DNA of 64,000 nucleotides from Loktanella sp. Alg231-35 (lineage in GTDB: Bacteria > Pseudomonadota > Alphaproteobacteria > Rhodobacterales > Rhodobacteraceae), in assembly GCF_900143545.1 (NCBI RefSeq), contig NZ_FREV01000001.1, forward strand, positions 248,001-312,000, written 5' to 3'. The notes beneath the pieces were generated by a model. That model did not search any database. It was given only the letters and a program-made list of their open reading frames with translations, and was not told the DNA's origin. This document shows positions 7,821-26,601 of this stretch, in pieces (the stretch's first letter is position 1; each line of letters begins with the position of its first letter). The position numbers and the translations under genes are program-made.

Positions 7821-7834
7821 ATGTGGTTGATATA

Positions 7835-10800
7835 ATGAGTGCGACTTTGACTGACATCGACGCGGCTGAAACTGACATTGCTATTGTCGGTATGGCCGCG
7901 CATTTGCCTGGCGCTGATACCGTCGCGGCCTATTGGGAGAACCTCAAGGCCGGGATCGAATCGATCCGCAGCTACAGCAAAGAAGAATTGCTGGCCGCTG
8001 GCGAGGCGCCGCACCGGATCAATCGTCCTGACTATGTGCCTGCTAGTGCTCCTTTGCAGGGCTACCAGAATTTTGATGGCGAATTCTTTGGCCTGTCCGC
8101 CAAGGAATCCGCGATCATGGACCCTCAGCACCGCCGTTTGCTTGAAGTGTCCTGGGAAGCGTTGGAGAACGCGGGCCACATGCCCGAGCATACCAAGGGC
8201 CCTATTGGTGTTTTTGCGGGCTGCGGCATGGGCAGCTACTTCTATTTCAACATCTGTTCCAACCCGAAACTGGTCGACAATGTTGGCCTGTTTTTGTTGC
8301 GCCATACAGGCAACGACAAGGATTTCCTCTCAACCCGGTTGAGCCATATCCTTGATCTCAAAGGCCCAAGCGTGAACGTGCAGACGGCCTGTTCCACGTC
8401 GCTTGTCGCTACTCATTATGCCGCGCAGGCATTGCTATCAGGGGAATGTGACACTGCATTGGCGGGCGGCGTCACGATCGAGTTTCCGCAAGGCCAAGGC
8501 TATATCTACAAAGAAGGCGAAGTGCTGTCCCCGGATGGCCATTGCCACGCCTTTGATCATCGCGCGCAGGGCACTGTCTTTGGGTCTGGTGCAGGTGTTG
8601 TTGTGATGCGCCGTCTCAAGGATGCAATTGCCGACGGTGATCATATCTGGGCCGTGATCAAGGGCACTGCCGTGAACAACGATGGCGCTGCAAAGGCGGG
8701 CTATCTCGCGCCGTCCGTTGATGGGCAAGCTGACGCGATTGCCGAAGCGCAGATGATCGCCGAAACCCCTGCCGATACGATTGACTATATCGAATGCCAC
8801 GGTACCGGCACCTATCTGGGCGACCCGATTGAGGTGGCGGCCCTTACGCAGGCCTTCAGCGAAACAACGGATGAGGTTGGATTCTGCCGCATTGGTTCGG
8901 TCAAAACCAACATTGGCCATTTGGACACCGCCGCAGGCGTGGCAAGTCTGATCAAGGCGTCGATGTCGCTGCATCACAAGCAAATCCCGGCCTCTTTGGG
9001 GTATGAGAAACCCAATCCTGCCATTGATTTCGAAAACTCGCCATTCAAGGTGAATGACAAACTTAGCGATTGGGTCAGCCACAAAGGACCGCGTCGCGCT
9101 GGTGTGAACTCATTGGGTGTGGGTGGGACGAATGCACATGTGGTCTTGCAGGAAGCACCTGTGCTGCCTGCGTCAGAGCCTTCGGAATGGCCTTTCCAGA
9201 TCCTCACTGTGTCTGGACGCAACAAGGCGGCTTTGGACGCGAATTCTGCCGCTCTTGCCGCGCATTTGCGCGCGAACCCCGATCAACCGCTCGCCGATGT
9301 TGCGTGGACGTTGCAGAATGGACGCCGCGCTTTTGAACGCCGCCGTGTCATTGTGGCCGAAACCCATGAAGAGGCCGCAGCACAGCTTGAAAAGAACGAC
9401 CCGCGCCGCGCCTTCAGCCATACTGCTGTGGGTGAAAACCCCGACTATGTCTTCATGTTCCCCGGCGGTGGCACGCAATACACCGGCATGGGCCGCGACC
9501 TGTACGAGACAGAGCCGGTTTTTGCTGAATGGATGGACCGTGGGCTAGAAGTCCTGCAATCCAAATTGGATTTTGACATTCGCGCTGTTTGGTTGCCCGA
9601 ACCGGGGCAGGAAGAGGCGGCAGAAGCCAAGCTAACGCAGCCTTCTGTGCAATTGCCGCTGATCGTGATTGTGGAATACGCGCTGGCGCAACTGTGGATG
9701 AACTGGGACGTGAAACCCACAGCGCTCACGGGCCACTCACTGGGTGAATATACGGCTGCATGCCTGTCCGGGGTAATGTCATTTGAGGATTGCATCGGAT
9801 TGGTGCATCTGCGCGGATCGCTTCTTGATAAAGTGCCCGGTGGCGGAATGTTGTCCGTTGCTTTGCCGGTTGATCAGTTGGAACCGCTTTTGGGTGACGA
9901 TCTGGATCTCGCGGCGGTGAATGCGCCGTCGCTCAGCGTGGCCACCGGTGCGCGCGCGCCATTGGATGCGCTTGAGGCGCAGCTGAAGGCCAAGGAAATT
10001 GATTGCCAGCGCATCCCGGTTGATGTCGCAGGCCATTCGCGGATGCTTGACCCGATCCTGAAGGATTTCGGTGACTACCTGCGTTCGATTAAGCTGAATG
10101 CGCCGCAAATCCCTTTTACCTCGAACAGCAATGGCGCGTTGATCACTGCCGATCAGGCGCAAAGCCCTGACTATTGGGTCAACCACCTGCGTGGGACGGT
10201 CTATTTCGCAGATTGCCTCAGCACACTGGCCACCGAAGAAGAACGCGTGTTCATCGAAATCGGCCCCGGTAAGGCGCTGTCTTCGCTCGCGGGACAGCAT
10301 GACAAGATTTCGGCCAATCAGGTGATATCAAGCCTGCGCCATCCCAAGGATGATATCGCAGATGATGCGTATTTCCTGGCCATGCTTGGCCGCGTTTGGG
10401 CAGTGGGCGGCAGTTTTGACTGGGCGCAAATCTGGGGCGATGCGCGGCGATTGCGTGTGCCGCTGCCCACTTACGCCTTCCAGCATACCGCCTATTTTAT
10501 CGAACCTGGCATTGCGACAACGGCAGAAGAACCCGAGTGGCTGACGCGGAGTGAAACGCCTGAAAACTGGGGTTACCGTACCGCGTGGTTGCCGCGCTAC
10601 GCGGCCTGCGATGTGGATGTCACCGGCGATTTGTCCGAGGCCGAGAAACAAATATGGCTGGTATTTGCGGATGATGCCGGGCTGACAACGGCAGCGGCCG
10701 ACCGTCTGCTCGAGGCGGGTCATGACGTGATCTCGGTGCGGTCAGGCGACACTTTCGCCCGCGACGGTGAAGGCGGATACTTCATCGCGCCAGAGCGTGG

Positions 10801-13800
10801 TCGCGAAAGTTATGACCAGCTAATTTCAGACCTCAACACCCGCGATCTGATCCCGACGCGCGTTCTGCACGGCTGGATGATCACCGCTGATGAGAGTTTC
10901 CGACCCGGATCAAGTTTCTTCCACCGCGTGCAAGAACAAGGTTTCTATAGCCTGTTCTTCCTGGCTCAGGCGATTGGTGGTGAAGACCTTTCTGACAACA
11001 TCCATATCTGTGTGCTGTCCAACGGGGCCGCCCAGCACAAGGATGAGGCGCTGCCGCACCCCGAAAAGGCCACACTGACCGGCCCGGCTCGCGTGATCCC
11101 GCGCGAGTTCCCGCAACTGACGGTCACAACCCTTGATCTGGAATTACCCGCGCCAACAGGTCGCAAGAAACGTGGATTCGCCAAGGCGGACACAGACAAG
11201 CTGGTTGATCATATCCTTGAAGATGCCTTGGCTGATCCCGGCAATGGCACTGCTTTGGTGCGCGGCGGCAAACGGTTTGAACTGACGTACCGGCCCGCCG
11301 ATCTGACCGAGCTGCCGGATGACGGCCCGTTGCCGGTTCTCAAGGACAAGGGCGTTTATCTGATCACGGGCGGTTTTGGTGGCATCGGGCTGACGCTGGC
11401 CGAGGCGCTTGTCAGGCGCTGCGGCGCGCGCATCGCGCTGCTGTCGCGTTCTGGTTTGCCACCGCGCGAGGCTTGGGAAAATACGCTCAAGAACGCGCCG
11501 CCGACGGCCTCTGTTGCGCGCGGGATTAAAGCCGCGCAAGCGCTCGAGGCGCTGGGCGGTGAGGTGCTGCCTGTTGCCGCTGACGTGAGCAACGTGGAAG
11601 ACATCCGCGAGGCGCGCGCGCAGGTCGAAGCCGCATTTGGCCCAATCAACGGTGTGATCCACGCCGCTGGTCATGTTGATGACGCCCCGATCATGGCCAA
11701 GGATATCACCAGTATCGAGGATGTTTTTGCCCCTAAAATCCACGGCACGCAGGTGCTAGATGAGGTTTTCCCGGACGGTGATCTGGATTGGCTGGTGCTC
11801 TTTGCGTCAACCTCGACGGCAACTGCCCCGATCGGACAGGTCGATTATGTTGCGGCGAATGAGTATCTGAATGCCTATGCCAAATCCCGCAGCGGTGACA
11901 AAACGGCTGTGCGCGCGATCAACTGGGGTATCTGGGCCGATGTCGGTATGGCCGCTGACGCCATGGAAGTACGCACCGGGTCTGTCGCACCCGCCGAGGT
12001 GGCAGAGGCCGACGCGCCGATGCTGGACGCAAAGACCTTTGACCGGGCTGGCAATCGTGTCTTTACCGCCACCTATCGCAGCGCCGACCGCTGGTTCCTT
12101 GATGAACACCGCACCAGTGCGGGTGATGCGCTGGTTCCCGGTACAGGCTATCTTGAGATGGCGGCAGAAGCCCTGCACGAGATGGGTGAGACAGCCGCGT
12201 TTGAAATTCGCAACCTATATTTCCTGCGGCCCTTTGCGGTCGGGGATACCGGATCAGTAGATCTGCGGTTGAGCTTGCCGCGCAGCGATGCAGGTTATGA
12301 TTTCCTTGTCGAAAGCGGTAGCGACGGGGCCTATGCGCAAAACGCGCAGGCCAGTCTGCAGTTCCTGCCGATGGAGACACCGGAACCGCTTGATATCGCA
12401 GGCATTGCCGCGCAGTGCGGCGCGCCGATTGAGGCCGGTGATCTGGGCTGGATTTCCTCCCCACAAGAGGCGCATTTGAAATTCGGGCCACGCTGGCGTG
12501 TCCTGCAATCCACAGCCTTTGGCGACGGCGAAGGCCTTGCCACGCTGGAACTGCCCGAAGCCGCGGCCCAAGACCCGGACGCAGGTTATCTGCTGCACCC
12601 CGGTATGATGGATCTGGCCACAGGCTGGGCGATGAAGCTGATCAAAGGCTACACTGCACAGCATCTTTGGGTGCCGGTGTCTTATCGGTCGGTCAAGGTT
12701 TACGCACCGCTACCCGCCCAAGTGGTCAGCTGGGTGCGCAACGCCAGTGACAACACGTCCGAAGCCGAGATTGCAAATTTTGACATCACGCTGGCCGCGC
12801 CCGACGGTACCGTTTGCGTTGAAATCACTGGGTTCTCAATCCGGCAAATGGCCGAGATGACGGGCTTTGGTGCGCAGGAACCGACAGCAGCATCGCAAAA
12901 CGACGATGAAGCCGCACGCCCCTTGTCACCCGCCGAAGAACGTCTGCGTCATAACCTGTCACAGGGTATCCGGGCAGAGGAAGGGGCGGACCTATTTTTG
13001 CGCGCCATGCTTAGCCCGCACCGGCAGATCATTCTGTCATCGCTTGATCTTGATGCTTTGATTGTTCAGGCGGGCCAGAACGATGACGACGATGGCGAAG
13101 ACGGGCAAAAGTTCTCTCGCCCGCAACTCGATAGCGATTTTGTGGAACCCGAAGGGCCCATTGAAGAACGGCTTGCCGCCTTCTGGCAGGACCTGCTTGG
13201 GGTGGATCAGATCGGGGCCGAGGACAGCTTCTTTGACCTTGGCGGGCACTCTTTGATTGCCGTGCGTTTGTTCGCGCAAATCCGCAAGGCGTTCCAGGTC
13301 GATTTCCCGATCTCGGTTCTGTTCGAGGCCCCAACGATCCGCAAATGCGCCGAATTGATCGCAGCACGCGGTGTGACTATCGAAGGCGAAGAGGCACCAG
13401 CTGATGCGCCGCAGGCTCCGACACGCCGCTTCACCCATCTGGTGCCGATGCACCAAGGCGAAGGCGGGCACAAGCCGCCGTTCTTCCTTGTCGCAGGCAT
13501 GTTCGGCAACGTCTTGAACCTGCGCCATCTGGCGCATCTGATCGGCAGTGACCGCCCGTTTTATGGGCTACAGGCGCGCGGCCTTTTGGGTGGCGAGGAA
13601 CCGCACCGCACGATTGAAGCTGCAGCAACCGATTATATCGCAGAGCTGCGGCAAGTGCAGCCGCATGGCCCGTATCACCTTGGTGGTTTCTCGGGTGGTG
13701 GCATTACCGCTTATGAAATGGCGCAGCAGTTGCGGGCGCAGGGTGAAGAGGTCGCCGCGCTTGTGCTTCTCGATTCGCCACTGCCGATCCGACCGGAGGT

Positions 13801-14275
13801 TGACCGCTCTGCTAAGTTGCGGATCAAATTGCAGGATCTTCGCCGTGGCGGCCCAAGATATGTGGCTGAATGGGCCCAATCCCGTATCGCATGGGAAATC
13901 GCAAAGCGCCGTGGTCGCGAAGAAACCGCTGATGAGGGTCAACAGTTCCATAATGTCGCGATTGAAGACGCCTTTATGGAAAGTGTGGGTGCCTATCAGG
14001 TCAAACCATGGGACGGCACCTTTGCGCTGTTCCGGCCACCCTTGGTGCCGAAATGGATCGTTGGTGGGCGACCTATCAGTGACGAGCGTCACTACCTCTA
14101 TCACGATAACGATTGGACCAAATTCGTCCCCAATATCGAAGTGTTCGAAGTGCCGGGCGATCACGACAGTATGGTGCTGGAACCCAATGTGCGTGTGCTT
14201 GCCGCGCGCATCCGCCGCTATTTGGAACGCCCCGCTACGACCAGTCCCAGCCTTTACAAAGAAGCTGCTGAATAA
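7835..14275 (+). CDS. Type I polyketide synthase, KS-AT-KR-DH-ACP-TE
   Basis: 2146 residues from ATG 7835; a GTG 12 bases upstream is possible. Ketosynthase about 10-440: Cys186 in QTACSTSL, His322 in ECHGTG, His362 in NIGHLD. Acyltransferase about 540-850 with GHSLGEY (Ser635). Ketoreductase about 1170-1360: GGFGGIG nucleotide site, VDD motif of the B-type kind, and Tyr1338. A dehydratase-like hotdog region follows (His1425 in DEHRTSAGDALVPG, Asp1593 in HPGMMD); the HxxxGxxxxP motif has one extra residue. ACP Ser1806 in GGHSL. Type I thioesterase with Ser1953 in GGFSGGG and His2110 in GDHDS. No docking domains, so it probably works iteratively and releases a hydroxy or unsaturated acyl chain. 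The KR-before-DH order is unusual. Confidence 0.93.
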   Translation: MSATLTDIDAAETDIAIVGMAAHLPGADTVAAYWENLKAGIESIRSYSKEELLAAGEAPHRINRPDYVPASAPLQGYQNFDGEFFGLSAKESAIMDPQHRRLLEVSWEALENAGHMPEHTKGPIGVFAGCGMGSYFYFNICSNPKLVDNVGLFLLRHTGNDKDFLSTRLSHILDLKGPSVNVQTACSTSLVATHYAAQALLSGECDTALAGGVTIEFPQGQGYIYKEGEVLSPDGHCHAFDHRAQGTVFGSGAGVVVMRRLKDAIADGDHIWAVIKGTAVNNDGAAKAGYLAPSVDGQADAIAEAQMIAETPADTIDYIECHGTGTYLGDPIEVAALTQAFSETTDEVGFCRIGSVKTNIGHLDTAAGVASLIKASMSLHHKQIPASLGYEKPNPAIDFENSPFKVNDKLSDWVSHKGPRRAGVNSLGVGGTNAHVVLQEAPVLPASEPSEWPFQILTVSGRNKAALDANSAALAAHLRANPDQPLADVAWTLQNGRRAFERRRVIVAETHEEAAAQLEKNDPRRAFSHTAVGENPDYVFMFPGGGTQYTGMGRDLYETEPVFAEWMDRGLEVLQSKLDFDIRAVWLPEPGQEEAAEAKLTQPSVQLPLIVIVEYALAQLWMNWDVKPTALTGHSLGEYTAACLSGVMSFEDCIGLVHLRGSLLDKVPGGGMLSVALPVDQLEPLLGDDLDLAAVNAPSLSVATGARAPLDALEAQLKAKEIDCQRIPVDVAGHSRMLDPILKDFGDYLRSIKLNAPQIPFTSNSNGALITADQAQSPDYWVNHLRGTVYFADCLSTLATEEERVFIEIGPGKALSSLAGQHDKISANQVISSLRHPKDDIADDAYFLAMLGRVWAVGGSFDWAQIWGDARRLRVPLPTYAFQHTAYFIEPGIATTAEEPEWLTRSETPENWGYRTAWLPRYAACDVDVTGDLSEAEKQIWLVFADDAGLTTAAADRLLEAGHDVISVRSGDTFARDGEGGYFIAPERGRESYDQLISDLNTRDLIPTRVLHGWMITADESFRPGSSFFHRVQEQGFYSLFFLAQAIGGEDLSDNIHICVLSNGAAQHKDEALPHPEKATLTGPARVIPREFPQLTVTTLDLELPAPTGRKKRGFAKADTDKLVDHILEDALADPGNGTALVRGGKRFELTYRPADLTELPDDGPLPVLKDKGVYLITGGFGGIGLTLAEALVRRCGARIALLSRSGLPPREAWENTLKNAPPTASVARGIKAAQALEALGGEVLPVAADVSNVEDIREARAQVEAAFGPINGVIHAAGHVDDAPIMAKDITSIEDVFAPKIHGTQVLDEVFPDGDLDWLVLFASTSTATAPIGQVDYVAANEYLNAYAKSRSGDKTAVRAINWGIWADVGMAADAMEVRTGSVAPAEVAEADAPMLDAKTFDRAGNRVFTATYRSADRWFLDEHRTSAGDALVPGTGYLEMAAEALHEMGETAAFEIRNLYFLRPFAVGDTGSVDLRLSLPRSDAGYDFLVESGSDGAYAQNAQASLQFLPMETPEPLDIAGIAAQCGAPIEAGDLGWISSPQEAHLKFGPRWRVLQSTAFGDGEGLATLELPEAAAQDPDAGYLLHPGMMDLATGWAMKLIKGYTAQHLWVPVSYRSVKVYAPLPAQVVSWVRNASDNTSEAEIANFDITLAAPDGTVCVEITGFSIRQMAEMTGFGAQEPTAASQNDDEAARPLSPAEERLRHNLSQGIRAEEGADLFLRAMLSPHRQIILSSLDLDALIVQAGQNDDDDGEDGQKFSRPQLDSDFVEPEGPIEERLAAFWQDLLGVDQIGAEDSFFDLGGHSLIAVRLFAQIRKAFQVDFPISVLFEAPTIRKCAELIAARGVTIEGEEAPADAPQAPTRRFTHLVPMHQGEGGHKPPFFLVAGMFGNVLNLRHLAHLIGSDRPFYGLQARGLLGGEEPHRTIEAAATDYIAELRQVQPHGPYHLGGFSGGGITAYEMAQQLRAQGEEVAALVLLDSPLPIRPEVDRSAKLRIKLQDLRRGGPRYVAEWAQSRIAWEIAKRRGREETADEGQQFHNVAIEDAFMESVGAYQVKPWDGTFALFRPPLVPKWIVGGRPISDERHYLYHDNDWTKFVPNIEVFEVPGDHDSMVLEPNVRVLAARIRRYLERPATTSPSLYKEAAE

Positions 14276-15265
14276 GTGTCTGATCCACGTATCCTGACCA
14301 TCGTGCTGAATTACAAAACAGCACAGATGACCCTGAAGGCCGCTGCCAGCGCGCGCGCGGCCATGCAGGGCTTGCCCGGTGAAATCGTGATTGTTGATAA
14401 CGACAGTCAGGACGGTTCGTTTGATGAGATGGCCGCCCATATCGCTGCCGAAGGTTGGGACACTACACGCGTCATCCAATCGGGCCGCAATGGCGGGTAC
14501 GGGGCAGGCAATAACGTCGGCATCCGGGCGGGCATGGCTGACGGCAGCAAACCGGATTACGTCTATATCCTGAATTCTGATGCCTTCCCTAAACCGGACG
14601 CGATCAAGGTTCTTTATGACCACCTTAATACGACACCGACCACAGGTTTCGCTGGCAGCTACATTGAGGGCGAAGATGAGGTGCAGCACCTTACGACCTT
14701 CCGCTTTCCTTCCATCTGGAGCGAATTTGAAGGTTCAATTCACTTTGGCCCTGTCAGCAAGCTGTTGAAATCCCACCGTGTCCCGCGTGATCTGAATGAG
14801 ACTGCGCAGGTTGACTGGCTTGCCGGTGCATCGGTCATGATGCGGCAGGATATCCTTGATGAAATCGGCCTCTTTGATGAGACGTTCTTTCTTTATTTCG
14901 AAGAAACCGATCTGTGCCTGCGCGCACAGAAGGCCGGGCATCAGATCATGTATCTTGCCGACAGTATTGTCACGCATATCGGGTCCGTTTCGACGGGGAT
15001 GAAGGAATGGAAACGCGTGCCGGAATACTGGTTCGACTCTCGGTGGTACTATTTCAGCAAGAACCACGGGCGGGCCTATGCGGCCTGTGCGACATCGCTG
15101 CACCTGATCGGAGGGAGCCTGAACTGGGTGCGCCGCAAGCTAACTGGCAAAACCCCCGGCGGTGCCCCGCATTTCCTACGCACGATGGCACGCCATGATG
15201 CCGCCGCCCTTTTCAAGTTTCAGCGCAGCAGACCACCCGAGGTCAGCCCGCAAATCGGAGAATAA
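14276..15265 (+). CDS. GT2 family glycosyltransferase (rhamnosyltransferase-like)
   Basis: 329 residues beginning with a GTG directly after the PKS stop codon. GT-A fold marks: TIVLNYKTAQM, EIVIVDNDSQDGS, the SGRNGGYGAGNNVGIR segment typical of WbbL-like rhamnosyltransferases, YVYILNSDAFP (DXD-like), VDWLAGASVMMRQD and FFLYFEETDLCLRAQKAG. It sits between PKS and NRPS without a gap. It therefore probably glycosylates the polyketide or lipid product, or attaches a sugar to the acceptor of that product. The rhamnose operon nearby makes dTDP-rhamnose a plausible donor; this is inference. Confidence 0.9.
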   Translation: MSDPRILTIVLNYKTAQMTLKAAASARAAMQGLPGEIVIVDNDSQDGSFDEMAAHIAAEGWDTTRVIQSGRNGGYGAGNNVGIRAGMADGSKPDYVYILNSDAFPKPDAIKVLYDHLNTTPTTGFAGSYIEGEDEVQHLTTFRFPSIWSEFEGSIHFGPVSKLLKSHRVPRDLNETAQVDWLAGASVMMRQDILDEIGLFDETFFLYFEETDLCLRAQKAGHQIMYLADSIVTHIGSVSTGMKEWKRVPEYWFDSRWYYFSKNHGRAYAACATSLHLIGGSLNWVRRKLTGKTPGGAPHFLRTMARHDAAALFKFQRSRPPEVSPQIGE

Positions 15266-15268
15266 TCC

Positions 15269-18200
15269 ATGTCCTCTTTTCGTGCAGTGATTATCGGTAA
15301 TGAATCCCTCGCCATTCAATGTGGTGAGATGCTGCGGGAGGCGGGCCATACGATTGCCGCCGTCGTTACACGCAATGCTGATGTCGAAGGCTGGGCGCAG
15401 GGTGCGGCGCTACCTGTTGTCTCATCTGATGCGGATCTTGCCGCAGCGCTGGCCGATATCCCTTGCGATTGGCTGCTGTCCATCGCCAACCTTGATATGA
15501 TCCCGGATGCGGTGCTGTCCTTGCCTGCACGCGGCACTGTGAATTTCCACGACGGCCCGCTGCCCCGTTATGCCGGATTGAACGCTCCCGTCTGGGCACT
15601 TTTGAACGGTGAGGCGGAATACGGCATTAGCTGGCATATGATCGCGGGCGGCGTCGATGAGGGCGGTCTGTTGGCGCAAAGCTTCTTTGACGTGGCCCCA
15701 GACGAAACGGTGCTGACCCTTAATACTAAATGCTATGCGGCGGCCATCGACAGCTTTGGCACGGTGATCGAAAAGCTGGCAAGCGACGCCCCTGTTGTCA
15801 CAGCGCAGGACCTGTCGCAGCGCAGCTATTTTGCCAAAAATGACCGGCCCGCCGGTGCGGCAAGGCTGGATTTCGCACAGACGGCCCGCAAGATCACGAC
15901 ATTGGTGCGCGCGCTGGATCACGGTGACTACTGGAACCCGTTGACCTGCCCCAAGATCGCCTCGGCCTCTGGTGTCTATCTTGTCAGCAAGGCCGTCGCG
16001 GGCAAGGCCGCGTCTGATGCGCCAGCGGGCACGGTGATTGCCGTAGATGAAGAAAGCCTGACGGTCGCAACTGCAACAGCGCCTGTCATGCTAAGCGGCT
16101 TGCGCGACGCGACGGGTGGTGCGGTATCGGCAACCAAGATTGTCAGCGTTGGTGATCAGCTACCAGCGCTTGATCCCGCAGAAGCAGAGAGTTTGACGGC
16201 CGCGCTTAAGGGTACGCTGAAGCAGGAACCGGACTGGCGCAATGCGCTTGCCACGATGTCATCTACAGCTTTGCCGCAAATCGATATGAGCGCTGATCAA
16301 GGTGACGTCACGCACCTGCCACTGAACGGCGCCGCCGATGATCTGGCCAAGGCTTTGCGCGTCATGGGCGATGCACTTGCAGAAGAACCCATTGCGATTG
16401 CTCTGGGCGTTGCGCACGATGCGCCGGGATACCTCAACAACTGGGTTCCACTGCACAGCGGTGACGACATCAACGATGCCAAGGCACGCGGCCCATTCGC
16501 TGCCGATCTTTGCGCGCGCATCCCCGGTGGGGTGGCGACACCGGCGTTGGGGCTGTCCGAGGCGGGGCACATCCCCGGCACTGCTTTGACGGTTTCGGGC
16601 ACTACCTTGCATGCAGATTTGGGCAAGATAAGCGCAGACCCAGCCCAGATTATGTCGGATCGGCTTGATCATATGGCGGCACAGATCGCAAAGGGTGTGG
16701 CACCAACGGTGCTGGCTGATGCAGAGCGCCAGAAGGTGCTTTTCGACTGGAACGCGACCGCCACCGACTTTCCTGCCGATCAGTGCATCCATCAGGCGTT
16801 TGAGGCGCAAGTCGCCAAGACCCCCGATGCCGAAGCGTTGGCTTTCGAAGACGAAAGCCTGACATATTCTGAATTGAACAAACGCGCCAATGCACTGGCC
16901 CATGTGCTGCGCGACAAGGGCGTCGGCCCGGATGTCATTGTTGGCCTGCATCTGCGGCGGTCCTCTGCTTTGCTGATCGGGGCTTTGGCGATCATGAAGG
17001 CGGGTGGGGCCTATCTGCCGATGGATCCAGCCTATCCGGCGGACCGTACGGCGCTCTATATTGAAGACAGCGGCACCAAGGTGATCGTAACCGACAGCGC
17101 ATTGGCCGCTGATTTGCCTGATGGCACCGCTGAAACAGTCCTTATGGACGAACAGCCAGCGGGCACCGAAACCGGGAACCCTGATAGCGGCGTCACCGGC
17201 GTACATATGGCCTATATGATCTACACCTCCGGTTCGACCGGGCGACCCAAAGGGGTAATGGTCGAGCACCGCAATGTGGCGAACTTCTTTACCGGCATGG
17301 ACGACCGCATCGCGCATGATCCCGCGGGGGTCTGGATGGCGGTCACATCGCTATCGTTTGATATCTCTGTGCTGGAACTGTTCTGGACCCTCGCGCGTGG
17401 GTTCAAGCTGGTGATCTCGGGCGATGACAGCCGTGCATTGGTTGCAGGTGAAGGCAGCGCGCCGGGCGTTGGCATGGACTTCAGCCTGTTTTACTGGGGC
17501 AATGACGATGGCGTGGGCCGAGGCAAGTACCGCTCGCTTTTGGAAGGCGCCCAATTTGCTGACAAAAACGGGTTCTGCGCGGTGTGGACGCCGGAACGGC
17601 ATTTCCACGCATTTGGCGGCCCCTATCCGAACCCATCGGTCACCGGCGCGGCTGTCGCTGCCGTCACTCAGAACCTCGCAGTGCGCGCAGGGTCTTGTGT
17701 CGCGCCGCTACACCACACAGCGCGGATTGCCGAAGAATGGGCAGTTATCGACAACCTGACCAACGGCAAAACTGGCCTTGCGATCGCTTCGGGTTGGCAG
17801 CCTGACGACTTTGTACTGCGGCCCGAAAACACGCCGCCCAAGAACAAACCGGCGATGTTCGACGCAATCCGCGATCTGCGCAAACTCTGGGCAGGCGAAA
17901 CCGTAGAATTCGCGCGGGCCGATGGCGAAATGCATGGTGTTGTCACGCAGCCGCGCCCAGTGTCCGAGAAGCTGAATGTCTGGGTGACCACGGCGGGCAA
18001 CCCAGAGACGTGGAAAGAAGCAGGCACAAACGGCTGCAACGTTTTGACCCACTTGCTGGGCCAAAGTGTGGGCGAAGTGGCGGACAAGATCGTCATCTAT
18101 CACGATGCCCTGCGGGCCGCTGGCCACAACCCTGATGATTTTACGGTCACTTTGATGCTGCATAGCTTCCTTGCAGACACCCGCGAACATGCCCGCGAAA

Positions 18201-19834
18201 TCGCACGCGAACCGATGATGGACTACCTGCGCGCCGCCGCCGGTCTGATCAAACAATACGCCTGGGCCTTCCCCGCGTTCAAAAAACCCAAAGGTGTCGA
18301 AAACCCGATGCAGATCGACCTTGGTTCTCTTGATGAGGATGAGATGGATGGCATCCTGGAGTTCGCGTTTGAACGGTATTTCAACGACAGCGGCCTGTTC
18401 GGCACGGTTGAGGATGCGATTGAGCGGGTGAAAGAGGTCAAAGCCATCGGCGTGACCGAGGTGGCCTGTCTGATCGATTATGGCATCGATGTAGACCTTG
18501 TGCTTGAGGGACTCAAACCCTTGGCCAAAGTTGTTGCGGCCAGCAATCAGGATGTGGCGGATGGTGATTATTCCATCGCTGCCCAAGTCGCCCGGCACAA
18601 GGTCACGCATCTACAATGCACGCCCTCAATGGCGCAGATGCTGACGATGAACGATGAGGCCCGTACTGCCCTTACCCAGATCAAACATATGATGGTCGGA
18701 GGAGAGGCCTTGCCCGGTGCTCTGGCGGATGAGCTGCGCAGCCTGACCGGTGGGCATATCGAGAATATGTATGGCCCGACCGAGACGACAATCTGGTCAA
18801 CAACCCAAACTGCTAGCCCCGGCCAAGGTGCGGTGCCCATCGGAACACCTATCGCAAACACCCAAGTCTATGTGCTGGGCGATGATATGGAGCCAAAACC
18901 CATTGGTGTGCCCGGTGAGCTTTATATCGGGGGTGATGGTGTGACGCGCGGCTATTTCCAGCGTGATGATTTGACTGCCGAACGCTTTGTTCCCAATCCA
19001 TTCACTGATGGCCGGATGTATCGCACCGGCGATCTGGTGCGATGGCGCGCCGACGGGCGGCTTGATTTTCTGGGCCGGGCTGACTTCCAGGTCAAACTGC
19101 GCGGTTACCGCGTGGAGCTGGGCGAGATCGAAAGCGTCATCGACCAGCAAGCGACGGTGCAGCAGTCCGTTGTCATCGCCCGCGAGGATACGCCGGGTGT
19201 CGTGCAACTGGTTGGTTATGTGCTGACCGATGGTGCATTTGATGAAGCAGCGCTGCGCAGGGATATGTTGGGGTCTCTGCCAGACTACATGGTGCCCCGC
19301 CATTTTGTGACGCTGGATGCCTTTCCGCTGACGCCCAATAAGAAGATTGATCGAAAGGCGCTCCCCCCGCCGGTTTTGGGTCAGGTAGCAACACCGGCCG
19401 AAGCGACAGCAGCAGCTCCCGCGACCAACGCGCCAGCCGCATCGGTTGATCTGGGATCAGAGGCTGAGATCAGCGAGCGGATCGCCGCGATTTGGTCTGC
19501 GATGCTTGGCGTGCCGCAGATCGGCCCAAAAGACAGCTTCTTTGATCTGGGCGGGCATTCTTTGCTGGCCGTACAGGCGCACCGGGAAATTCGCAGCACG
19601 ATGGGTGTGCAGAAGTTGTCGATCACCGATATTTTCCGCGCACCCACCTTGGGCGCATTATCCAAGATTGTGGCTGATAAGTCCGGCGTTTCCGCACGGC
19701 CCACACCCCCAGCAGCACCCAAGACAGCAGCCGAACCTGCCGTTGCCGCGGCGACACCAGTGGGATCAAGTGACACATTACAGGACGCGATGGCCCGGCG
19801 GCGCGAAATGCGCGAACGGCGGCGCAATCGGTGA
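15269..19834 (+). CDS. One-module NRPS: formyltransferase-adenylation(luciferase-like monooxygenase insert)-PCP
   Basis: 1521 residues. Residues 1-310 form a methionyl-tRNA-formyltransferase-like domain with an Asn92-His94-Asp130 triad in the same spacing as E. coli Fmt. Residues about 340-465 look like the tail of a condensation domain; no HHxxxDG motif is present. The adenylation domain begins near 490 (LTYSELNKRANALA; YTSGSTGRPKG). After SFDISVLELFW (Asp698) it is interrupted by an FMN-dependent luciferase-like monooxygenase (about 736-1090, VWTPERHFHAFGGPYPNPS). It resumes with THLQCTPSMAQM, NMYGPTETTIW and PNKKIDRKAL. PCP Ser1431 in GGHSL; no thioesterase. Read by eye, the pocket code is D-I-L-Q-M-G-M-I-W-K, close to the known glycine code. 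Expected product: a PCP-bound formylated, alpha-hydroxylated glycine. Confidence 0.92.
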   Translation: MSSFRAVIIGNESLAIQCGEMLREAGHTIAAVVTRNADVEGWAQGAALPVVSSDADLAAALADIPCDWLLSIANLDMIPDAVLSLPARGTVNFHDGPLPRYAGLNAPVWALLNGEAEYGISWHMIAGGVDEGGLLAQSFFDVAPDETVLTLNTKCYAAAIDSFGTVIEKLASDAPVVTAQDLSQRSYFAKNDRPAGAARLDFAQTARKITTLVRALDHGDYWNPLTCPKIASASGVYLVSKAVAGKAASDAPAGTVIAVDEESLTVATATAPVMLSGLRDATGGAVSATKIVSVGDQLPALDPAEAESLTAALKGTLKQEPDWRNALATMSSTALPQIDMSADQGDVTHLPLNGAADDLAKALRVMGDALAEEPIAIALGVAHDAPGYLNNWVPLHSGDDINDAKARGPFAADLCARIPGGVATPALGLSEAGHIPGTALTVSGTTLHADLGKISADPAQIMSDRLDHMAAQIAKGVAPTVLADAERQKVLFDWNATATDFPADQCIHQAFEAQVAKTPDAEALAFEDESLTYSELNKRANALAHVLRDKGVGPDVIVGLHLRRSSALLIGALAIMKAGGAYLPMDPAYPADRTALYIEDSGTKVIVTDSALAADLPDGTAETVLMDEQPAGTETGNPDSGVTGVHMAYMIYTSGSTGRPKGVMVEHRNVANFFTGMDDRIAHDPAGVWMAVTSLSFDISVLELFWTLARGFKLVISGDDSRALVAGEGSAPGVGMDFSLFYWGNDDGVGRGKYRSLLEGAQFADKNGFCAVWTPERHFHAFGGPYPNPSVTGAAVAAVTQNLAVRAGSCVAPLHHTARIAEEWAVIDNLTNGKTGLAIASGWQPDDFVLRPENTPPKNKPAMFDAIRDLRKLWAGETVEFARADGEMHGVVTQPRPVSEKLNVWVTTAGNPETWKEAGTNGCNVLTHLLGQSVGEVADKIVIYHDALRAAGHNPDDFTVTLMLHSFLADTREHAREIAREPMMDYLRAAAGLIKQYAWAFPAFKKPKGVENPMQIDLGSLDEDEMDGILEFAFERYFNDSGLFGTVEDAIERVKEVKAIGVTEVACLIDYGIDVDLVLEGLKPLAKVVAASNQDVADGDYSIAAQVARHKVTHLQCTPSMAQMLTMNDEARTALTQIKHMMVGGEALPGALADELRSLTGGHIENMYGPTETTIWSTTQTASPGQGAVPIGTPIANTQVYVLGDDMEPKPIGVPGELYIGGDGVTRGYFQRDDLTAERFVPNPFTDGRMYRTGDLVRWRADGRLDFLGRADFQVKLRGYRVELGEIESVIDQQATVQQSVVIAREDTPGVVQLVGYVLTDGAFDEAALRRDMLGSLPDYMVPRHFVTLDAFPLTPNKKIDRKALPPPVLGQVATPAEATAAAPATNAPAASVDLGSEAEISERIAAIWSAMLGVPQIGPKDSFFDLGGHSLLAVQAHREIRSTMGVQKLSITDIFRAPTLGALSKIVADKSGVSARPTPPAAPKTAAEPAVAAATPVGSSDTLQDAMARRREMRERRRNR

Positions 19835-20463
19835 TGCAAGATATCAAAGCGGCACTGGAGCGCCTACTGGGCCCCAATGTTGGAATCGGTGTCACCGATC
19901 CGCGTGACAGCCCTTCGGGCCTTTGGCCGGAAGAAGCCGCCGCTTTGCCGCGCGCAATCCCCAAACGACGGGCCGAATATGCCGCAGGCCGCCGCGCGGC
20001 CCGTCAAGCCATGGGGGCCTTGGGCCTGCCTGCCGCAGCCATCTTGAATGCCAACGATCGCGCGCCGATCTGGCCCGCGGGGCTGACCGGGTCAATTGCC
20101 CATTGCGACGATTGCTGCATCGCGGCTGTCACTCTGACTAGCGCGCATCGCGCGCTAGGCATCGATCTTGAACCGGCAAAACCGTTGGATGCTGACTTGA
20201 TTCCAACCATCTGCTGTCAGACAGAGCAGGATTGGGTGGCTGGGCAAGCGGACCCCGGTCTTGCCGCCATGACGATCTTTTGTGCCAAAGAGGCGATCTA
20301 TAAAGCACAATATCCCCTGACCGGGCAGGTGATCGGCTATGATGCCGTGACGGTGCATTTGGCGGATGGTGATTTTGCAATTACCGCGCATCCCACATTG
20401 CCGGACATGCAAGGTGCCGTGGTGATCAAAGGAGGGCTGATTTTGGCCGTTGCCTGTGCCTAA
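19834..20463 (+). CDS. 4'-phosphopantetheinyl transferase (Sfp/EntD type)
   Basis: About 209 residues. It should transfer phosphopantetheine from CoA to Ser1806 of the PKS and Ser1431 of the NRPS. Motifs seen are GSIAHCDDCCIAAV, HRALGIDLEPAK (metal-binding Asp/Glu) and FCAKEAIYKAQYP (the WxxKEAxxK-type motif). The ATG at 19834 overlaps the NRPS stop (TGATG), so it is translationally coupled; a GTG at 19831 is an alternative. A dedicated activating enzyme inside the operon supports the view that the PKS and NRPS are functional and act together. Confidence 0.93.
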   Translation: MQDIKAALERLLGPNVGIGVTDPRDSPSGLWPEEAAALPRAIPKRRAEYAAGRRAARQAMGALGLPAAAILNANDRAPIWPAGLTGSIAHCDDCCIAAVTLTSAHRALGIDLEPAKPLDADLIPTICCQTEQDWVAGQADPGLAAMTIFCAKEAIYKAQYPLTGQVIGYDAVTVHLADGDFAITAHPTLPDMQGAVVIKGGLILAVACA

Positions 20464-21382
20464 ACGCTTGATCCTGTTCCTGTTGTCGCCTGTGTTGGTG
20501 GTGCTTGGCGCACTTGGGCTTTATACGCGCGATCCCGCACCGCTTGATGCAGAGCGTTTCGAAGCGCTTTATTCAGAACCTGCGCCTGCACCGGACGGGC
20601 GGCGCCAAGTCTATCATTTGGGTCACAGCCTTGTCGGTCGCGATATGCCTGCGATGCTTGCCCAATTGGCCGGTGAAGGGCACGGATTTGCCAGCCAACT
20701 TGGCTGGGGTGCGCCGTTGCGGTCACATTGGGATGTTGATGAACCTATCAATGGGTTTGATGCGGAAAACGCTCATTCTGACTATCGCGACGCACATGAG
20801 GCCGTGGCATCCGGCGACTATGATGCGCTGGTCCTGACCGAGATGGTCGAGCTGCAAGCGGCAATCGATTATTTCGATGCCGCCCGGATGCTGCACAATT
20901 GGACCGACAAGGCGCATGGGTCAGGCATGGCCGTCTATTTCTACGAAACCTGGCATCAGTTGGACGATCCCAAAGGCTGGCGTGCGCGGTTGGATCACGA
21001 TCTTGGCGCGCTTTGGGAAGGGCAGATCATGCGGGTGGCGCTGGCCATGGAAGACACGCCGCAACCGATGTACCTGATCCCCGGCGGACAAGTCATGGCT
21101 GCCATGGCGGACGCGTTGGAAGCCAAAGGACCGCTTGGCCCGCTCGGCAGCTACCGCGATATTTTCAGCGATGAGGTGCATTACAATGACTACGGCGCCT
21201 ATCTGATCGCGCTGACGCATTACGCCGTGCTGTATCAGCAAAGCCCGGTGGGTTTGCCGCACACGCTGCTGCGCGCTGACGGCACGCCAGCCGATGATCC
21301 CGGTCCAGAGCTCGCGCGCTTTATGCAAGAGATCGTATGGGAGGTTGTTACCTCGCTCCCTCGGACTGGTGTACCGTCTTAG
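20450..21382 (+). CDS. SGNH-hydrolase-like exported or membrane-anchored protein
   Basis: 310 residues. An N-terminal hydrophobic segment (about 5-23) serves as signal or anchor. YHLGHSLVGRDMP has the position of the SGNH nucleophile block (Ser in GHS). DEVHYNDYGAYLIAL near residue 240 has the D-x-x-H spacing of block V. It could add or remove acyl groups on an extracellular polymer. The start is TTG at 20450, inside the end of the PPTase gene, behind AAAGGAGGG; GTG at 20456 is an alternative. Last gene of the PKS/NRPS operon; its stop overlaps the stop of the convergent sugar operon. The assignment as SGNH is moderate. Confidence 0.65.
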   Translation: MPVPKRLILFLLSPVLVVLGALGLYTRDPAPLDAERFEALYSEPAPAPDGRRQVYHLGHSLVGRDMPAMLAQLAGEGHGFASQLGWGAPLRSHWDVDEPINGFDAENAHSDYRDAHEAVASGDYDALVLTEMVELQAAIDYFDAARMLHNWTDKAHGSGMAVYFYETWHQLDDPKGWRARLDHDLGALWEGQIMRVALAMEDTPQPMYLIPGGQVMAAMADALEAKGPLGPLGSYRDIFSDEVHYNDYGAYLIALTHYAVLYQQSPVGLPHTLLRADGTPADDPGPELARFMQEIVWEVVTSLPRTGVPS

Positions 21383-23481
21383 AAACCAAACAGATTGGCG
21401 TCTGTAATCGCACCCGCGATCAGCTTGTCCTGATCCGTTTCGGGCATCCAACCCAGTTCATCTTTTGGTTTTGTATTGTCGAACTGCGTGAAATGCGCCC
21501 GCGATTGCCAGTCTTTCAACGAGGCACGGGTGATCCCCTTGCGCCGCAGCAGCGTGACCTTGAGCATGTGTTTCACCGCATCCGAAGCAAAGAGCGCATG
21601 CAGCGAACTGGACGTCACATTCAGGCGCGCACCCATCTGATCATGGATCGCCGCGAAATAGTCGCGAGCTGACATCATCGGATCACCCACTAGATTATAG
21701 GATTCACCCTCAATCCCGTCTTGTTCCATCATGCGGATCAACCCATCAGTCAGATCGTCGATCAGCACAAACGGCAGATTGTTCTTGCCATGGCCCCAGA
21801 TGCGCACGGCGCCCGCCCCATGCCACCGCCCGATACCCCAATGCTGCAACGGACCACCGATCCCGACAACAATACCGGGGCGCGCGATCACCAAGGGCAA
21901 TCCACGGCCTTCGTGCATCTCCAGCAATTGCCGTTCGCATTCTGCCTTTGAGCGCGCGTACATATTGCGGTCGGTCATGTCGTCGGCATAGCCCGTTGCT
22001 TCGGTGATGCTGCCGTCGGTGCTGGACATATCGTAGGATGCAATCGTGCCGGTGTAGATGAAGCGCCGCACACCTGCCGTCATCGCCGCCTCGGCAACGC
22101 CCACGCTCACGCCGACGTCGTTGATCAGCGCATCATCCCAAGTTTTGTCCATGGATTTGGCAAGGTTATAAACCGTATCGATCCCCTCCATCGCCTTGGA
22201 CATTCCGTCCACATCACGCATCGAGACCGAGACGGTTTCAACATGGTTCTGGATATCTGCAAATGGTCCGGTCCGGCCACGGCTGACAACGCGCACGTCA
22301 TGGCCGCGCGCCACCAGATCGCGGGTCAGCGCACGCCCGATAAAGCCGGTGCCGCCAATCACCATGACTTTGGGTTGCGGTTTGCCTTTGGGATGGGCGG
22401 GCACTTTGTGGGTGGGCATCATTGCCAACGCATCATCGATGCTTTGCATCACGGTCACGGCGGTCACCATGTCATAGCGTGCATCCAAGGGCCTACCGTT
22501 TGCAACGCTGTCATAGAAACTGCCAACCGCGCCGCGAAAGCTCAGCCCATACGGGGATTTACGGTTCAGCGATGTCACTTGACGGACAACATTTACCCCG
22601 CCTTCACGGAAGTGTTGCCAGCCTTGTGACAACTGCGCGCGCAGCGGGTTCACCACCAGATCGGCGGTATTTTCGCCGCGCACCACCAGCGTGTCCGATG
22701 CATAATCAAACCGCGCTTGCGCGGTCGAGCCGCGCAGGACAACGCTGCGATCATCGACGGTTTCCACCAGCGAGATGTTGAAAGTCACATCCACATCACC
22801 AACGCGCGCCAGAATGCGCCAGCCCTGATGGCGAACTTCATCACCGGGCAGGGTGATCGGCTTGCTCAACTGTAGGTGCGAAACCTCGACAGGCCCGAAA
22901 AGATCCGTCGCAAAGGCGAACAGATGCGGGCCAAGTTCCAGCAATAGGTTCTTTGGTTCGCGAAGCAGCCAGAGCCCAAAGGGGCCAGAGCGCAGCGGTG
23001 GCAGAGGGAAACACCAGTTGATCTCGGCCATTGAAATGCGCCCCAGAGCACCCGATTGCGCGGCCTTCTTAAGCCGTTCATATCCTGGCATCCCTAGAAA
23101 ATTATGCCCAGCCGCCATGAGCCGATCCGCCTTGCGGCCCACCGCGACCATGTCAGACGTCTCTGCTGCAGAGACACCAACCGGCTTTTCCACAAAGCAA
23201 TGCAGGCCTGCCTCGGCGCATTTCACGGCCAACATTTTGTGGCTGTCGGGCGGTGTCAGAATATGCACGGCATCCAGATTTGCCTTTGCGATCATTTCAT
23301 CCAGATCGCTATAGGCGTCGGCACCATATCCGCTGGCCAGAGCTTCGGCGGCACCGGCGGACATATCGCAGACGGCGGCAAGTTCCACTCCGGGCAGCGC
23401 TTTGATCGTATCGGCATGCCAGGTGGCAATGTAGCCCGCGCCAACAATACCCGCGCGCAATGGTTTATTCGCCATGTTCAT
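21379..23481 (-). CDS. Fusion of Gfo/Idh/MocA oxidoreductase and NAD-dependent epimerase (SDR)
   Basis: About 700 residues with two Rossmann enzymes in one chain. The N-terminal half (about 5-345) is a Gfo/Idh/MocA oxidoreductase: GIVGAGYIATWHAD, HILTPPDSHKML and the signature HCFVEKPVGVSAAE. The C-terminal half (about 368-700) is an extended SDR: VMVIGGTGFIGRALTRDLV, RFIYTGTIASYD, YARSKAECE (YxxxK) and ARPGIVVGIGG. Both act on NDP-sugars or related polyols, so the fusion may catalyse two successive steps. The start is ambiguous (GTG 23487, ATG 23481 or 23475). It is the last gene of the rfb operon. The stop codon overlaps that of the SGNH gene. Confidence 0.88.
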   Translation of the reverse strand: MNMANKPLRAGIVGAGYIATWHADTIKALPGVELAAVCDMSAGAAEALASGYGADAYSDLDEMIAKANLDAVHILTPPDSHKMLAVKCAEAGLHCFVEKPVGVSAAETSDMVAVGRKADRLMAAGHNFLGMPGYERLKKAAQSGALGRISMAEINWCFPLPPLRSGPFGLWLLREPKNLLLELGPHLFAFATDLFGPVEVSHLQLSKPITLPGDEVRHQGWRILARVGDVDVTFNISLVETVDDRSVVLRGSTAQARFDYASDTLVVRGENTADLVVNPLRAQLSQGWQHFREGGVNVVRQVTSLNRKSPYGLSFRGAVGSFYDSVANGRPLDARYDMVTAVTVMQSIDDALAMMPTHKVPAHPKGKPQPKVMVIGGTGFIGRALTRDLVARGHDVRVVSRGRTGPFADIQNHVETVSVSMRDVDGMSKAMEGIDTVYNLAKSMDKTWDDALINDVGVSVGVAEAAMTAGVRRFIYTGTIASYDMSSTDGSITEATGYADDMTDRNMYARSKAECERQLLEMHEGRGLPLVIARPGIVVGIGGPLQHWGIGRWHGAGAVRIWGHGKNNLPFVLIDDLTDGLIRMMEQDGIEGESYNLVGDPMMSARDYFAAIHDQMGARLNVTSSSLHALFASDAVKHMLKVTLLRRKGITRASLKDWQSRAHFTQFDNTKPKDELGWMPETDQDKLIAGAITDANLFGF

Positions 23482-23483
23482 TC

Positions 23484-24455
23484 TCACTTATACTCAATAA
23501 TCGCCATGTCGCGGTTGCGCAGTTTGCGCCAATGATAGGTCAGCAGGCCAATGAAATTTGGCAGTTTAGACAGGCTCAGAAAGACGGATTGATGCATTGC
23601 CTTTTGGCGCGGCAATTCACCGTTCTCTAGCCCACGCACTGTGCGGATGTAAGACATCAGATAAAGCGCCAGCACTGCGACCAGCAAGAGCGGGGCAAAG
23701 ATGACCCCGACGATTGCAAGGAAAGGCAGGATCGCGCCATAGACCCAGACCCGTTGGCGGGCGCGGGCGAAGTATTCCGGGTGCAGATCACCCACTTGGG
23801 CAAACCCATGGCCGGTGCGCACGGCCCGCCGCCACCATTGCCCGAAGCGCATCATATTGGCGTCATGTAGTGTCATCTTGTTAGGTAGGCGGTGGACGCG
23901 CCAACCTGCCTTGCGCACGCGCGTACAAAACTCATCGTCTTCGGCGGCAATCACGCGCGGGTTAAACCCGCCAGTCGCAACAAAGACCTCTGCGCGGACC
24001 ATCATATCGCCGCCGCAAGCCTCGATATCGCCAGCAGGGCGGTGCCATTCAAAGTCGGTCAGACCGTTGTAGACGCTGGCATCGGGGTAAATCTCGGCAC
24101 GCCAGCCGGTCACAATGCCCATATCGGGGTTCTGCTCCAATGCAGCGATGCCAGCGGCAATCCAGCCGGGTTCGATCATGCAATCGCCATCTATGAACTG
24201 TACGAAGGTCGGCTTTGGGTCGAGCGCCTCGAACCCCGCATTGCGTGCCCGTGCTGCCGTAAACGGCACGCTCAGGTCCAGTTCCACAACCTGCGCACCT
24301 GCATCACGCGCTGTTTGCATGCTATCATCGGTCGAGCCGCTGTCGACATAAACGATCTGCGCGACTTCGCCTTGCAATGACGCCAACCCCGCCGCCAGAC
24401 GCGCGCCTTCGTTGCGGCCAATCAAGACCACTGCGGTGTCGGGTGCCGTGTTCAT
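23484..24455 (-). CDS. GT2 family glycosyltransferase with C-terminal membrane segment
   Basis: 323 residues. The GT-A domain shows AVVLIGRNEGARLAAGL, IVYVDSGSTDDSM, FVQFIDGDCMIEPGW (DXD) and ACGGDMMVRAEVF, with VIAAEDDEFCTRVRKAGW as the acceptor region. Two hydrophobic stretches (about 230-270) anchor it to the inner membrane. It overlaps both neighbours by about 4 bases (ATGA type). It probably adds one sugar to the lipid-linked repeat unit. Confidence 0.9.
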   Translation of the reverse strand: MNTAPDTAVVLIGRNEGARLAAGLASLQGEVAQIVYVDSGSTDDSMQTARDAGAQVVELDLSVPFTAARARNAGFEALDPKPTFVQFIDGDCMIEPGWIAAGIAALEQNPDMGIVTGWRAEIYPDASVYNGLTDFEWHRPAGDIEACGGDMMVRAEVFVATGGFNPRVIAAEDDEFCTRVRKAGWRVHRLPNKMTLHDANMMRFGQWWRRAVRTGHGFAQVGDLHPEYFARARQRVWVYGAILPFLAIVGVIFAPLLLVAVLALYLMSYIRTVRGLENGELPRQKAMHQSVFLSLSKLPNFIGLLTYHWRKLRNRDMAIIEYK

Positions 24456-25663: not shown

Positions 25664-26601
25664 GTTTCGGCCTCGCGTGATGCCTGAATGGCTGCGTCAA
25701 ACCCTGTCAGCGCCTCGCCATCCATCAACGCCTGCATGCCAGCGGTGTCATAGCGCACTGGCATCATCCGTGCTTGGAGGATTGCAGGGTGCAGCAATCC
25801 GGGTTTCGATGAAAACGGCAAGAGCTGCCCCAGAAATGACAGTAAACGCCATGGCAGCACGACAGATGGTTTTGTCCAGCCAATGCTTTGCAGATACTGA
25901 CCACGTGCCGGTGGGTTCGGATCAATCACGTTGATCGGACCATCCGGCGCAGTTTCACAGGCCTTCACAATCGCTAAAGCACAGTTTTTGACATAGACCG
26001 TGGGCAATTCGCCAGCTTTGGTGAACTGCACCAAAACCGGACCCGCCGGCGCACCAAGATGAGCATTCCAAAGAGCATTCGGCCCGTAAACGGCACCGGG
26101 CCGCAGGATCGTTTGCGGCAGATTAAAAGACGCCGCGATCTGTTCCTGCAATAGCTTGTTCTGGCAATACACATCACGCTTTTCTGGCGTGGCTTCCAAG
26201 GCGGATGCCTCGTCAATCTTGCCACCCTCGGCGACGGCATCATGGGCATAGACGGAAACCGAACTGATCAACACCAATCGCGGTGTAGATGGCGAATCGA
26301 TCATTGCCTCGCACAGGGCTTTGGTTGCTTCCACGGTATCGCGTTTTTGCTGGGCTGCGTCACCGCTGATTGTGGCGGCTAGATGAATGACCGTGTCAGC
26401 GCCATCAAGCGCCCCTGCCAGCGCGCCCTTCTGCATTAGATCAGCAACAACGGGTGTGACGCCATCGTCCCACTCGGGGTGGATGGCCGCTTCGCGTCGT
26501 ACAACGGCGCGCACATAATGCCCGCGCGCACGGGCGCAGGCGACAACTTCGCGCCCGATGAACCCAGCGGCACCTGTGACCACAATCGTCTGTTGGGCCA
26601 T
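25660..26601 (-). CDS. NAD-dependent epimerase/dehydratase (extended SDR)
   Basis: 313 residues from ATG 26601. This start is chosen because it makes a TGATG overlap with the upstream gene and has a G-rich ribosome-binding site. Motifs are TIVVTGAAGFIGREV (nucleotide site), ADTVIHLAATISG, RLVLISSVSVYAHD, YCQNKLLQEQI (YxxxK: Tyr..Lys) and LRPGAVYGPNALWN. Probably acts on a nucleotide sugar or on a lipid-linked sugar. Substrate not identifiable from sequence alone. Confidence 0.88.
   Translation of the reverse strand: MAQQTIVVTGAAGFIGREVVACARARGHYVRAVVRREAAIHPEWDDGVTPVVADLMQKGALAGALDGADTVIHLAATISGDAAQQKRDTVEATKALCEAMIDSPSTPRLVLISSVSVYAHDAVAEGGKIDEASALEATPEKRDVYCQNKLLQEQIAASFNLPQTILRPGAVYGPNALWNAHLGAPAGPVLVQFTKAGELPTVYVKNCALAIVKACETAPDGPINVIDPNPPARGQYLQSIGWTKPSVVLPWRLLSFLGQLLPFSSKPGLLHPAILQARMMPVRYDTAGMQALMDGEALTGFDAAIQASREAET

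Follow-up and report, generated by a model that had tools for sequence, protein, structure and literature searches.

The window (the whole stretch of DNA that was analysed, 64,000 nucleotides) contains an open reading frame at 15269–19834 on the forward strand, which encodes an NRPS protein of 1521 residues. According to Pfam and NCBIfam profiles the domain order is formyltransferase (F), linker, N-terminal part of an adenylation (A) domain, monooxygenase (MOx), C-terminal part of the A domain and PCP; the PCP is the last domain, and the protein lacks a TE. All these parts lie on the same strand. The F domain, an Fmt/ArnA-like formyltransferase with N92, H94 and D130, spans residues 1–298 (15269–16162) and is followed by a linker which resembles the C-terminal lobe of a condensation domain (residues 299–500; 16163–16768). 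The N-terminal part of the A domain (residues 501–737; 16769–17479) carries the pocket residues D698, I699 and L702, and the C-terminal part (residues 1089–1370; 18533–19378) carries the remaining ones. The luciferase-like monooxygenase of the TIGR04020 type (residues 738–1088; 17480–18532) is an insert within the A domain, located between FDISVLELF (697–705) and NMYGPTETT (1166–1174), which we take to be A4-like and A5-like motifs. The PCP (residues 1395–1470; 19451–19678) contains the phosphopantetheine Ser1431. A basic C-terminal tail (19784–19831) closes the protein; many relatives have a similar one, which follows a linker of variable sequence. Its pattern, like M-A/S-R/K-R-R-x-M-R-A-x-R, recurs in many of these relatives and is absent from L137. 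As a guess, the tail may possibly be a docking element, perhaps onto a PKS.

The NRPS gene belongs to a group of four genes on the forward strand, found in the order PKS, GT2, NRPS, PPTase and assigned by Pfam and NCBIfam. The type I PKS (7823–14275; 2150 amino acids) has the order KS-AT-KR-DH-ACP-TE, with rounded domain limits at residues 16–445 (KS), 540–860 (AT), 1177–1373 (KR), 1395–1690 (DH), 1775–1850 (ACP) and 1870–2130 (TE). The family-2 glycosyltransferase (GT2; 14276–15265) lies between the PKS and the NRPS, and its nearest NCBIfam models (MftF and a rhamnosyltransferase) are far under their cut-offs. The 4'-phosphopantetheinyl transferase (PPTase) is encoded at 19831–20463.

Further genes surround this group. 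At 1192–5167 there is a WecG/TagA/CpsF transferase gene (NCBIfam) on the forward strand, and on the reverse strand tyrosine-autokinase-like, chain-length-determinant-like and XrtA/PEP-CTERM-type ATPase genes; the latter three (1977–5167) score below the NCBIfam cut-offs and are nearest to the XrtA/PEP-CTERM exosortase-associated set. In Ruegeria conchae, an exosortase gene, xrtD, is found some 6 kb before its copy of the four-gene group. Downstream of the PPTase gene, the forward strand contains an open reading frame (20450–21382) with an N-terminal hydrophobic segment, which was named SGNH-like by eye and, at the limits applied, matched no family in either Pfam or NCBIfam. This is followed at 21379–23487 by a fused Gfo/Idh/MocA oxidoreductase and NAD epimerase of 702 amino acids. 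The polysaccharide neighbours at 23484–31119 on the reverse strand comprise a GT2, a GT4, oxidoreductases and the dTDP-rhamnose genes rmlA, rmlD, rmlB and rmlC, each of which is over an NCBIfam cut-off.

For the comparison with other bacteria, 80 genome loci were chosen by an alignment of F and linker, and represent the best 80 of 568 confirmed relatives. They contain 75 complete NRPS and 72 complete PKS sequences, which become 76 and 73 when the window is added. Alignment A3 took 13 GT2 sequences, and alignments A5 and A6 took 36 of the 80 loci and the window, chosen by hand. A Mycetohabitans locus (L058) and one of S. meliloti (L060) were excluded from alignments A1 and A2 because their best match covers only part of the query, and L038 was excluded from A2. 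The L058 protein, of about 2500 amino acids and encoded on a megaplasmid, has an F-like start; as its match to the query stops at residue 719, before MOx, it may be a different F-containing NRPS.

Concerning the F domain, the triad N92/H94/D130 is invariant in all 76 NRPS sequences, and structure prediction models the domain as a full N- and C-terminal Fmt fold. Its best PDB match is the sugar N-formyltransferase WbkC (5vyt, 6e-15), level with Fmt (3r8x, 9e-15), while LgrA is a far weaker match (0.003). Since WbkC and Fmt are closer by sequence than LgrA, F could in principle take a substrate other than an aminoacyl-PCP. The linker, about 200 residues between F and A, has no Pfam match. It was modelled separately because a structure search with F and linker together returned mostly formyltransferases; modelled alone, its fold resembles that of a condensation domain's C-terminal lobe, based on the structure model and on the matches listed by the structure search (VIA-align), where a missing family may still match. 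No complete condensation domain was found in the linker by Pfam, structure model or structure search. A complete C domain hidden in this region was therefore rejected, given about 200 residues, no Pfam match and a model that is only C-lobe-like.

The MOx domain scores 463 bits against TIGR04020 (MupA/Atu3671 monooxygenase), whose cut-off is 244.45. Its nearest solved structure is the oxygenase of PuwE (6ket, 2.9e-94), and the alignment with 6ket spans its length of about 350 residues. Looking at each domain separately, MOx is the most conserved part of the NRPS, with 131 of 351 columns invariant and a mean pairwise identity of 0.78. This identity is about 0.64 in the A parts, 0.58 in the N-terminal part of F and 0.35 in the linker; the KS of the partner PKS matches MOx (0.78). 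As to a possible loss of FMN-binding residues, the 78% mean identity among relatives and the full-length alignment with 6ket are the findings at the level of sequence. The PuwE OX sits between PKS and NRPS parts, where its proposed substrate is a beta-amino fatty acyl chain, and PuwE has been assigned a proposed role in forming a 3-amino-2-hydroxy acyl chain (PMC4219810). According to the palmerolide paper, luciferase-like monooxygenases including TIGR04020 members have been proposed as alpha-hydroxylases, and also for alpha-hydroxylation with Baeyer–Villiger chain shortening (PMC8739492). Because of these proposals for PuwE (PMC4219810) and TIGR04020-type enzymes (PMC8739492), a first guess by analogy is that MOx is an FMN-dependent alpha-hydroxylase.

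The pocket of the A domain consists of D698, I699, L702, Q1116, M1142, G1144, M1167, I1175, W1176 and K1359. Eight of the nine counted positions are invariant in the 76 sequences; the other, position 1142, has M in 60 sequences, L in 15 and F in a single one. The tenth, G1144, is invariant in a 27-sequence set. The glycine pocket code is DILQLGLIWK. A short pocket query was used for the comparison with glycine-activating domains, since LgrA dominated the longer A-domain alignments. At E 1e-8 its sole PDB match is 5u89, labelled in the structure search as a DhbF module, which we take to be glycine-specific. At the six aligned positions the residues are Q, M, G, M, I, W here and Q, L, G, L, I, W in 5u89, so that four agree and the other two differ by Leu to Met. 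The best guess is that the A domain activates glycine. An earlier note, made from the letters of this DNA, had described an Fmt-like domain with Asn92/His94/Asp130, a glycine-like pocket, an A domain split by a luciferase-like monooxygenase and a condensation region reduced to a remnant. Profile searches found the formyltransferase, A, TIGR04020 monooxygenase and PCP domains, and together with the models, the invariant triad and the pocket comparison they bear out each of these observations. The same note had called the protein stand-alone, and this does not hold.

A PKS sequence (TE part) is present in all 80 loci (the best 80 of 568), which were chosen without it, and KS-AT is present in 77. 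In the same best 80 of 568, GT2 is found in 79 loci, MOx in 78 (the two exceptions stop at a contig edge) and PPTase in 74; of the six without PPTase, five are at a contig edge and the other is L083. The four genes nearly touch: in the 68 loci where all are complete, the median gaps are 2, 2.5 and -1 bases and the largest is 41. Between NRPS and PKS, the pairwise distances show a correlation of r = 0.91, a value obtained without a control gene, which may partly reflect species descent. Likewise without a control gene, the correlation is 0.88 for PKS and GT2 and 0.81 for NRPS and GT2, and the PPTase distances correlate less with the other three genes (r 0.57–0.73). Ser1431 of the PCP is kept in 76 of 76 NRPS sequences. 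In the PKS, C190/H326/H366, S639, K1305/S1329/Y1342/N1346, H1429/D1597, S1810 and S1957/D1984/H2114, whose catalytic roles we assign from general knowledge of the families, are each present in 73 of 73. Compared with its usual form, the DH signature has one extra residue, and the motif of the AT corresponds to neither classical type; the DH activity and the extender unit are uncertain for these reasons. The architecture is well supported: the NRPS is half of a two-protein NRPS–PKS assembly line, whose genes stay together as a cassette of four.

Among 292 genomes of the order, 125 contain a TIGR04020 match that exceeds the cut-off. From these 125, a second set of 20 Rhodobacteraceae neighbourhoods was picked by hand for different genera, mostly with high scores. 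All 20 contain the NRPS, GT2 and PKS, with PKS and GT2 adjacent, and 18 contain the PPTase; it is absent from L038, where the PKS is also cut by the contig end, and from L041. Outside the Rhodobacterales, plasmids of Aminobacter (L056) and Neorhizobium (L057) contain the NRPS, a divergent PKS and the PPTase, and a Methylobacterium plasmid (L059) has the NRPS and then the PKS. In all, plasmid regions of ten records were retrieved; three of them are unannotated, and one of these three, that of Shinella (L188), was left out of further analysis. Among the best 80 of 568, the cassette is also present at five loci with the label Hydrogenophaga or Burkholderiales (L098, L100, L102, L109 and L110), as well as on L137, a short contig labelled Verrucomicrobiales which may be mis-binned. 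The PKS frame of Hydrogenophaga pseudoflava (L110:2478-8961) looks interrupted, by sequencing error or decay. For three of these five loci, Gemmobacter L138 provides the closest NRPS and PKS outside this group among the best 80 of 568, which suggests transfer of at least the NRPS–PKS pair; in the same sample, GT2 and PPTase of these three loci have other nearest relatives.

The flanks of the cassette were screened with 20 polysaccharide proteins as queries, taken from the window and from cassette neighbourhoods, and 20 stretches of 20 kb, drawn from 14 of the same genomes, served as controls. A polysaccharide match is present in the flanks of 73 of the 80 loci (the best 80 of 568) and in none of the 20 controls, an enrichment which is partly built in because of the origin of the queries; L098, one of the 80, supplied two of them and so matches itself. 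Matches of core type (flippase, initiating transferase, chain-length, WecG and others) are found in 59 of these 80 flanks. The seven flanks of the best 80 of 568 which gave no polysaccharide match are six contig-cut loci and L070. In the second set, 16 of 20 flanks have a polysaccharide match, 14 with one of core type, and further stretches beside these loci have one in 17 of 20. The four second-set flanks where the screen gave no polysaccharide match are those of L034, L035, L043 and the contig-cut L050. The flank genes of L034 that were tested (CobS-like, GatB, SDR and DUF3458) look unrelated to polysaccharide, and the 5 kb before it (L161) also gave no polysaccharide match. L035 is adjoined by a two-component system and an AMP-binding enzyme, and the 14 kb upstream of it (L162) contain a polysaccharide match. 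L043 has a GT4-like match in a separate search, which is not counted in the screen.

In five annotated plasmid loci (two of Ruegeria, and those of Parasedimentitalea, Aminobacter and Paracoccus) the cassette lies amid sugar genes; the neighbours are sugar transferases, flippases and export or polymerisation genes, with regulators further out in two of the five, and in Aminobacter a TolC-family gene adjoins the PKS directly. The flanks in Hydrogenophaga contain WecG-type, sugar-transferase and GT4 genes, and that in Neorhizobium a flippase, glycosyltransferases and a sugar transferase. Four flanking open reading frames in Methylobacterium matched no Pfam family. Of the 80 relatives (the best 80 of 568), 39 have the SGNH-like frame close to the cassette, so that it does not belong to the fixed core; its product could modify or place the acyl group. 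The Gfo/Idh/MocA–epimerase fusion was matched near the cassette in 24 of the same 80 loci (the best 80 of 568), in some of them weakly.

Concerning the function, the NRPS should initiate a chain, because it has an N-terminal formyltransferase and no complete C domain; it could not take over an upstream chain in the usual way, and the TE is on the PKS. From both ends of the line, i.e. F at the start and no TE on the NRPS, and KS and TE on the PKS, we infer the order NRPS to PKS, as we also infer the substrate, the site and timing of oxidation, the product and its destination. The PPTase would arm the PCP and the ACP, the A domain would load glycine, and F would formylate the PCP-bound amine from 10-formyl-tetrahydrofolate. 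MOx, dependent on FMN, would oxidise the alpha carbon to give N-formyl-alpha-hydroxyglycyl-S-PCP or a precursor; as predicted from the domains, this is plausible as the simplest intermediate. The KS would accept the acyl group for one extension by a unit that the AT has loaded (probably malonyl). KR and then DH would convert the beta-keto group to a hydroxyl and an alkene, and the TE would release a small formamido acyl group, be it by hydrolysis, by cyclisation or by transfer to a sugar. In view of the GT2 and the polysaccharide surroundings, the product would be glycosylated or placed on a surface sugar. We give about even chances to this best explanation, in which an initiating NRPS makes N-formyl(alpha-hydroxy)glycyl-PCP, the PKS extends it once and the product becomes attached to a sugar or polysaccharide.

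A possible but less likely alternative is that the line makes a free small molecule (a signal, metal ligand or antibiotic); the GT2 would glycosylate it, it would be exported, and the polysaccharide genes would only be co-travellers. The cassettes without a polysaccharide gene in the flank read, those on plasmids (at least some), the TolC-family gene beside the PKS of Aminobacter, as expected of an export gene, and the presence of the cassette in Hydrogenophaga and other Burkholderiales are consistent with this. However, co-travel fits less well with the flank screen, which found polysaccharide genes at 73 of 80 loci (the best 80 of 568) and in none of 20 controls, and with the sugar genes around the cassette in the five annotated loci. 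A more specific destination, which we consider rather improbable, is a unit derived from N-formyl-alpha-hydroxyglycine and fixed on exopolysaccharide as a peptide–polyketide substituent, either through capture of the N-acyl hemiaminal hydroxyl by the GT2 or through placement on a sugar by the TE.

Two further alternatives concern the reaction of MOx. It is unlikely that MOx performs another oxidation, such as N-hydroxylation of glycine, giving a formyl-hydroxamate or oxime, or oxidation of a PKS intermediate, including Baeyer–Villiger shortening. The proposals of alpha-hydroxylation with such shortening for enzymes of this kind (PMC8739492) and of action on a PKS-derived chain for the PuwE OX (PMC4219810) speak for it, whereas MOx lies inside the A domain of the presumed first module, beside its own PCP and before the PKS. 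An MtaG-like cleavage of the hydroxylated formylglycyl-PCP to formamide and glyoxylyl-S-PCP, with extension of the glyoxylate by the PKS, seems quite unlikely: the TIGR04020 domain, the glycine-like pocket and the known fate of alpha-hydroxyglycyl amides in myxothiazol-type systems are compatible with cleavage, yet it would waste the formyl group, and the F triad is invariant in 76 of 76 sequences. The earlier note had proposed a stand-alone enzyme that makes N-formyl-alpha-hydroxyglycine on its carrier with no partner, and a protein with a terminal PCP and no TE is compatible with this. Such a reading is very improbable given the PKS in all 80 loci (the best 80 of 568), whose selection did not depend on it, and in the 20 others, and given the matching divergence of NRPS and PKS sequences (compared without a control gene). 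Overall, the interpretation in that note is supported in part.

The usual view of NRPS and PKS enzymes is that they produce rare metabolites specific to single strains, whereas here they form a recurrent unit in a large share of a major marine group, mostly amid genes for surface polysaccharides. If the product decorates polysaccharide, as in the explanation we prefer, it would be a widespread chemical modification of marine biofilm material, and the initiating module would, if the reading is true, be a case of N-formyl-alpha-hydroxyglycine chemistry.

Parts of this line resemble known systems. In LgrA of linear gramicidin, a formyltransferase before A and PCP starts the chain too, and LgrA entries are among the matches of the F and A searches. 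LgrA is not known to contain a MOx, and by sequence F here is closer to sugar N-formyltransferases, Fmt and ArnA than to LgrA and models as a full Fmt fold. MtaG and MelG of myxothiazol and melithiazol likewise have an A domain for glycine that is interrupted by a luciferase-like monooxygenase. Both are terminal modules with a complete C domain, and MtaG ends in amide release. The module here, in contrast, would be initiating, with a formyltransferase at its N-terminus and the TE on the partner PKS; MtaG and MelG, which the earlier note had taken as the model, do not fit its role, and an MtaG-type terminal module was rejected because there is no complete condensation domain between F and A.

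All parts are of known kinds, and their combination as a cassette in polysaccharide loci is apparently undescribed in the open-access literature that was searched, where we did not find a description of an F-A(MOx)-PCP, PKS, GT2 and PPTase cassette or its product. For Tritonibacter mobilis, PMC11225332 notes a T1PKS/NRPS hybrid as well as a T1PKS cluster that lacks similarity to known clusters. Either may or may not be the present cassette; the part of PMC11225332 that was consulted does not describe the domain set, the cassette or a polysaccharide link. RkpA and WcbR, type I PKSs of capsular polysaccharide loci, have no NRPS partner mentioned in the accessible part of PMC3908369; they are similar by gene setting, i.e. 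a PKS gene inside polysaccharide loci (PMC3908369). PuwE of puwainaphycin provides the nearest solved relative of MOx, but its OX is located between PKS and NRPS parts (PMC4219810) and MOx inside the A domain.
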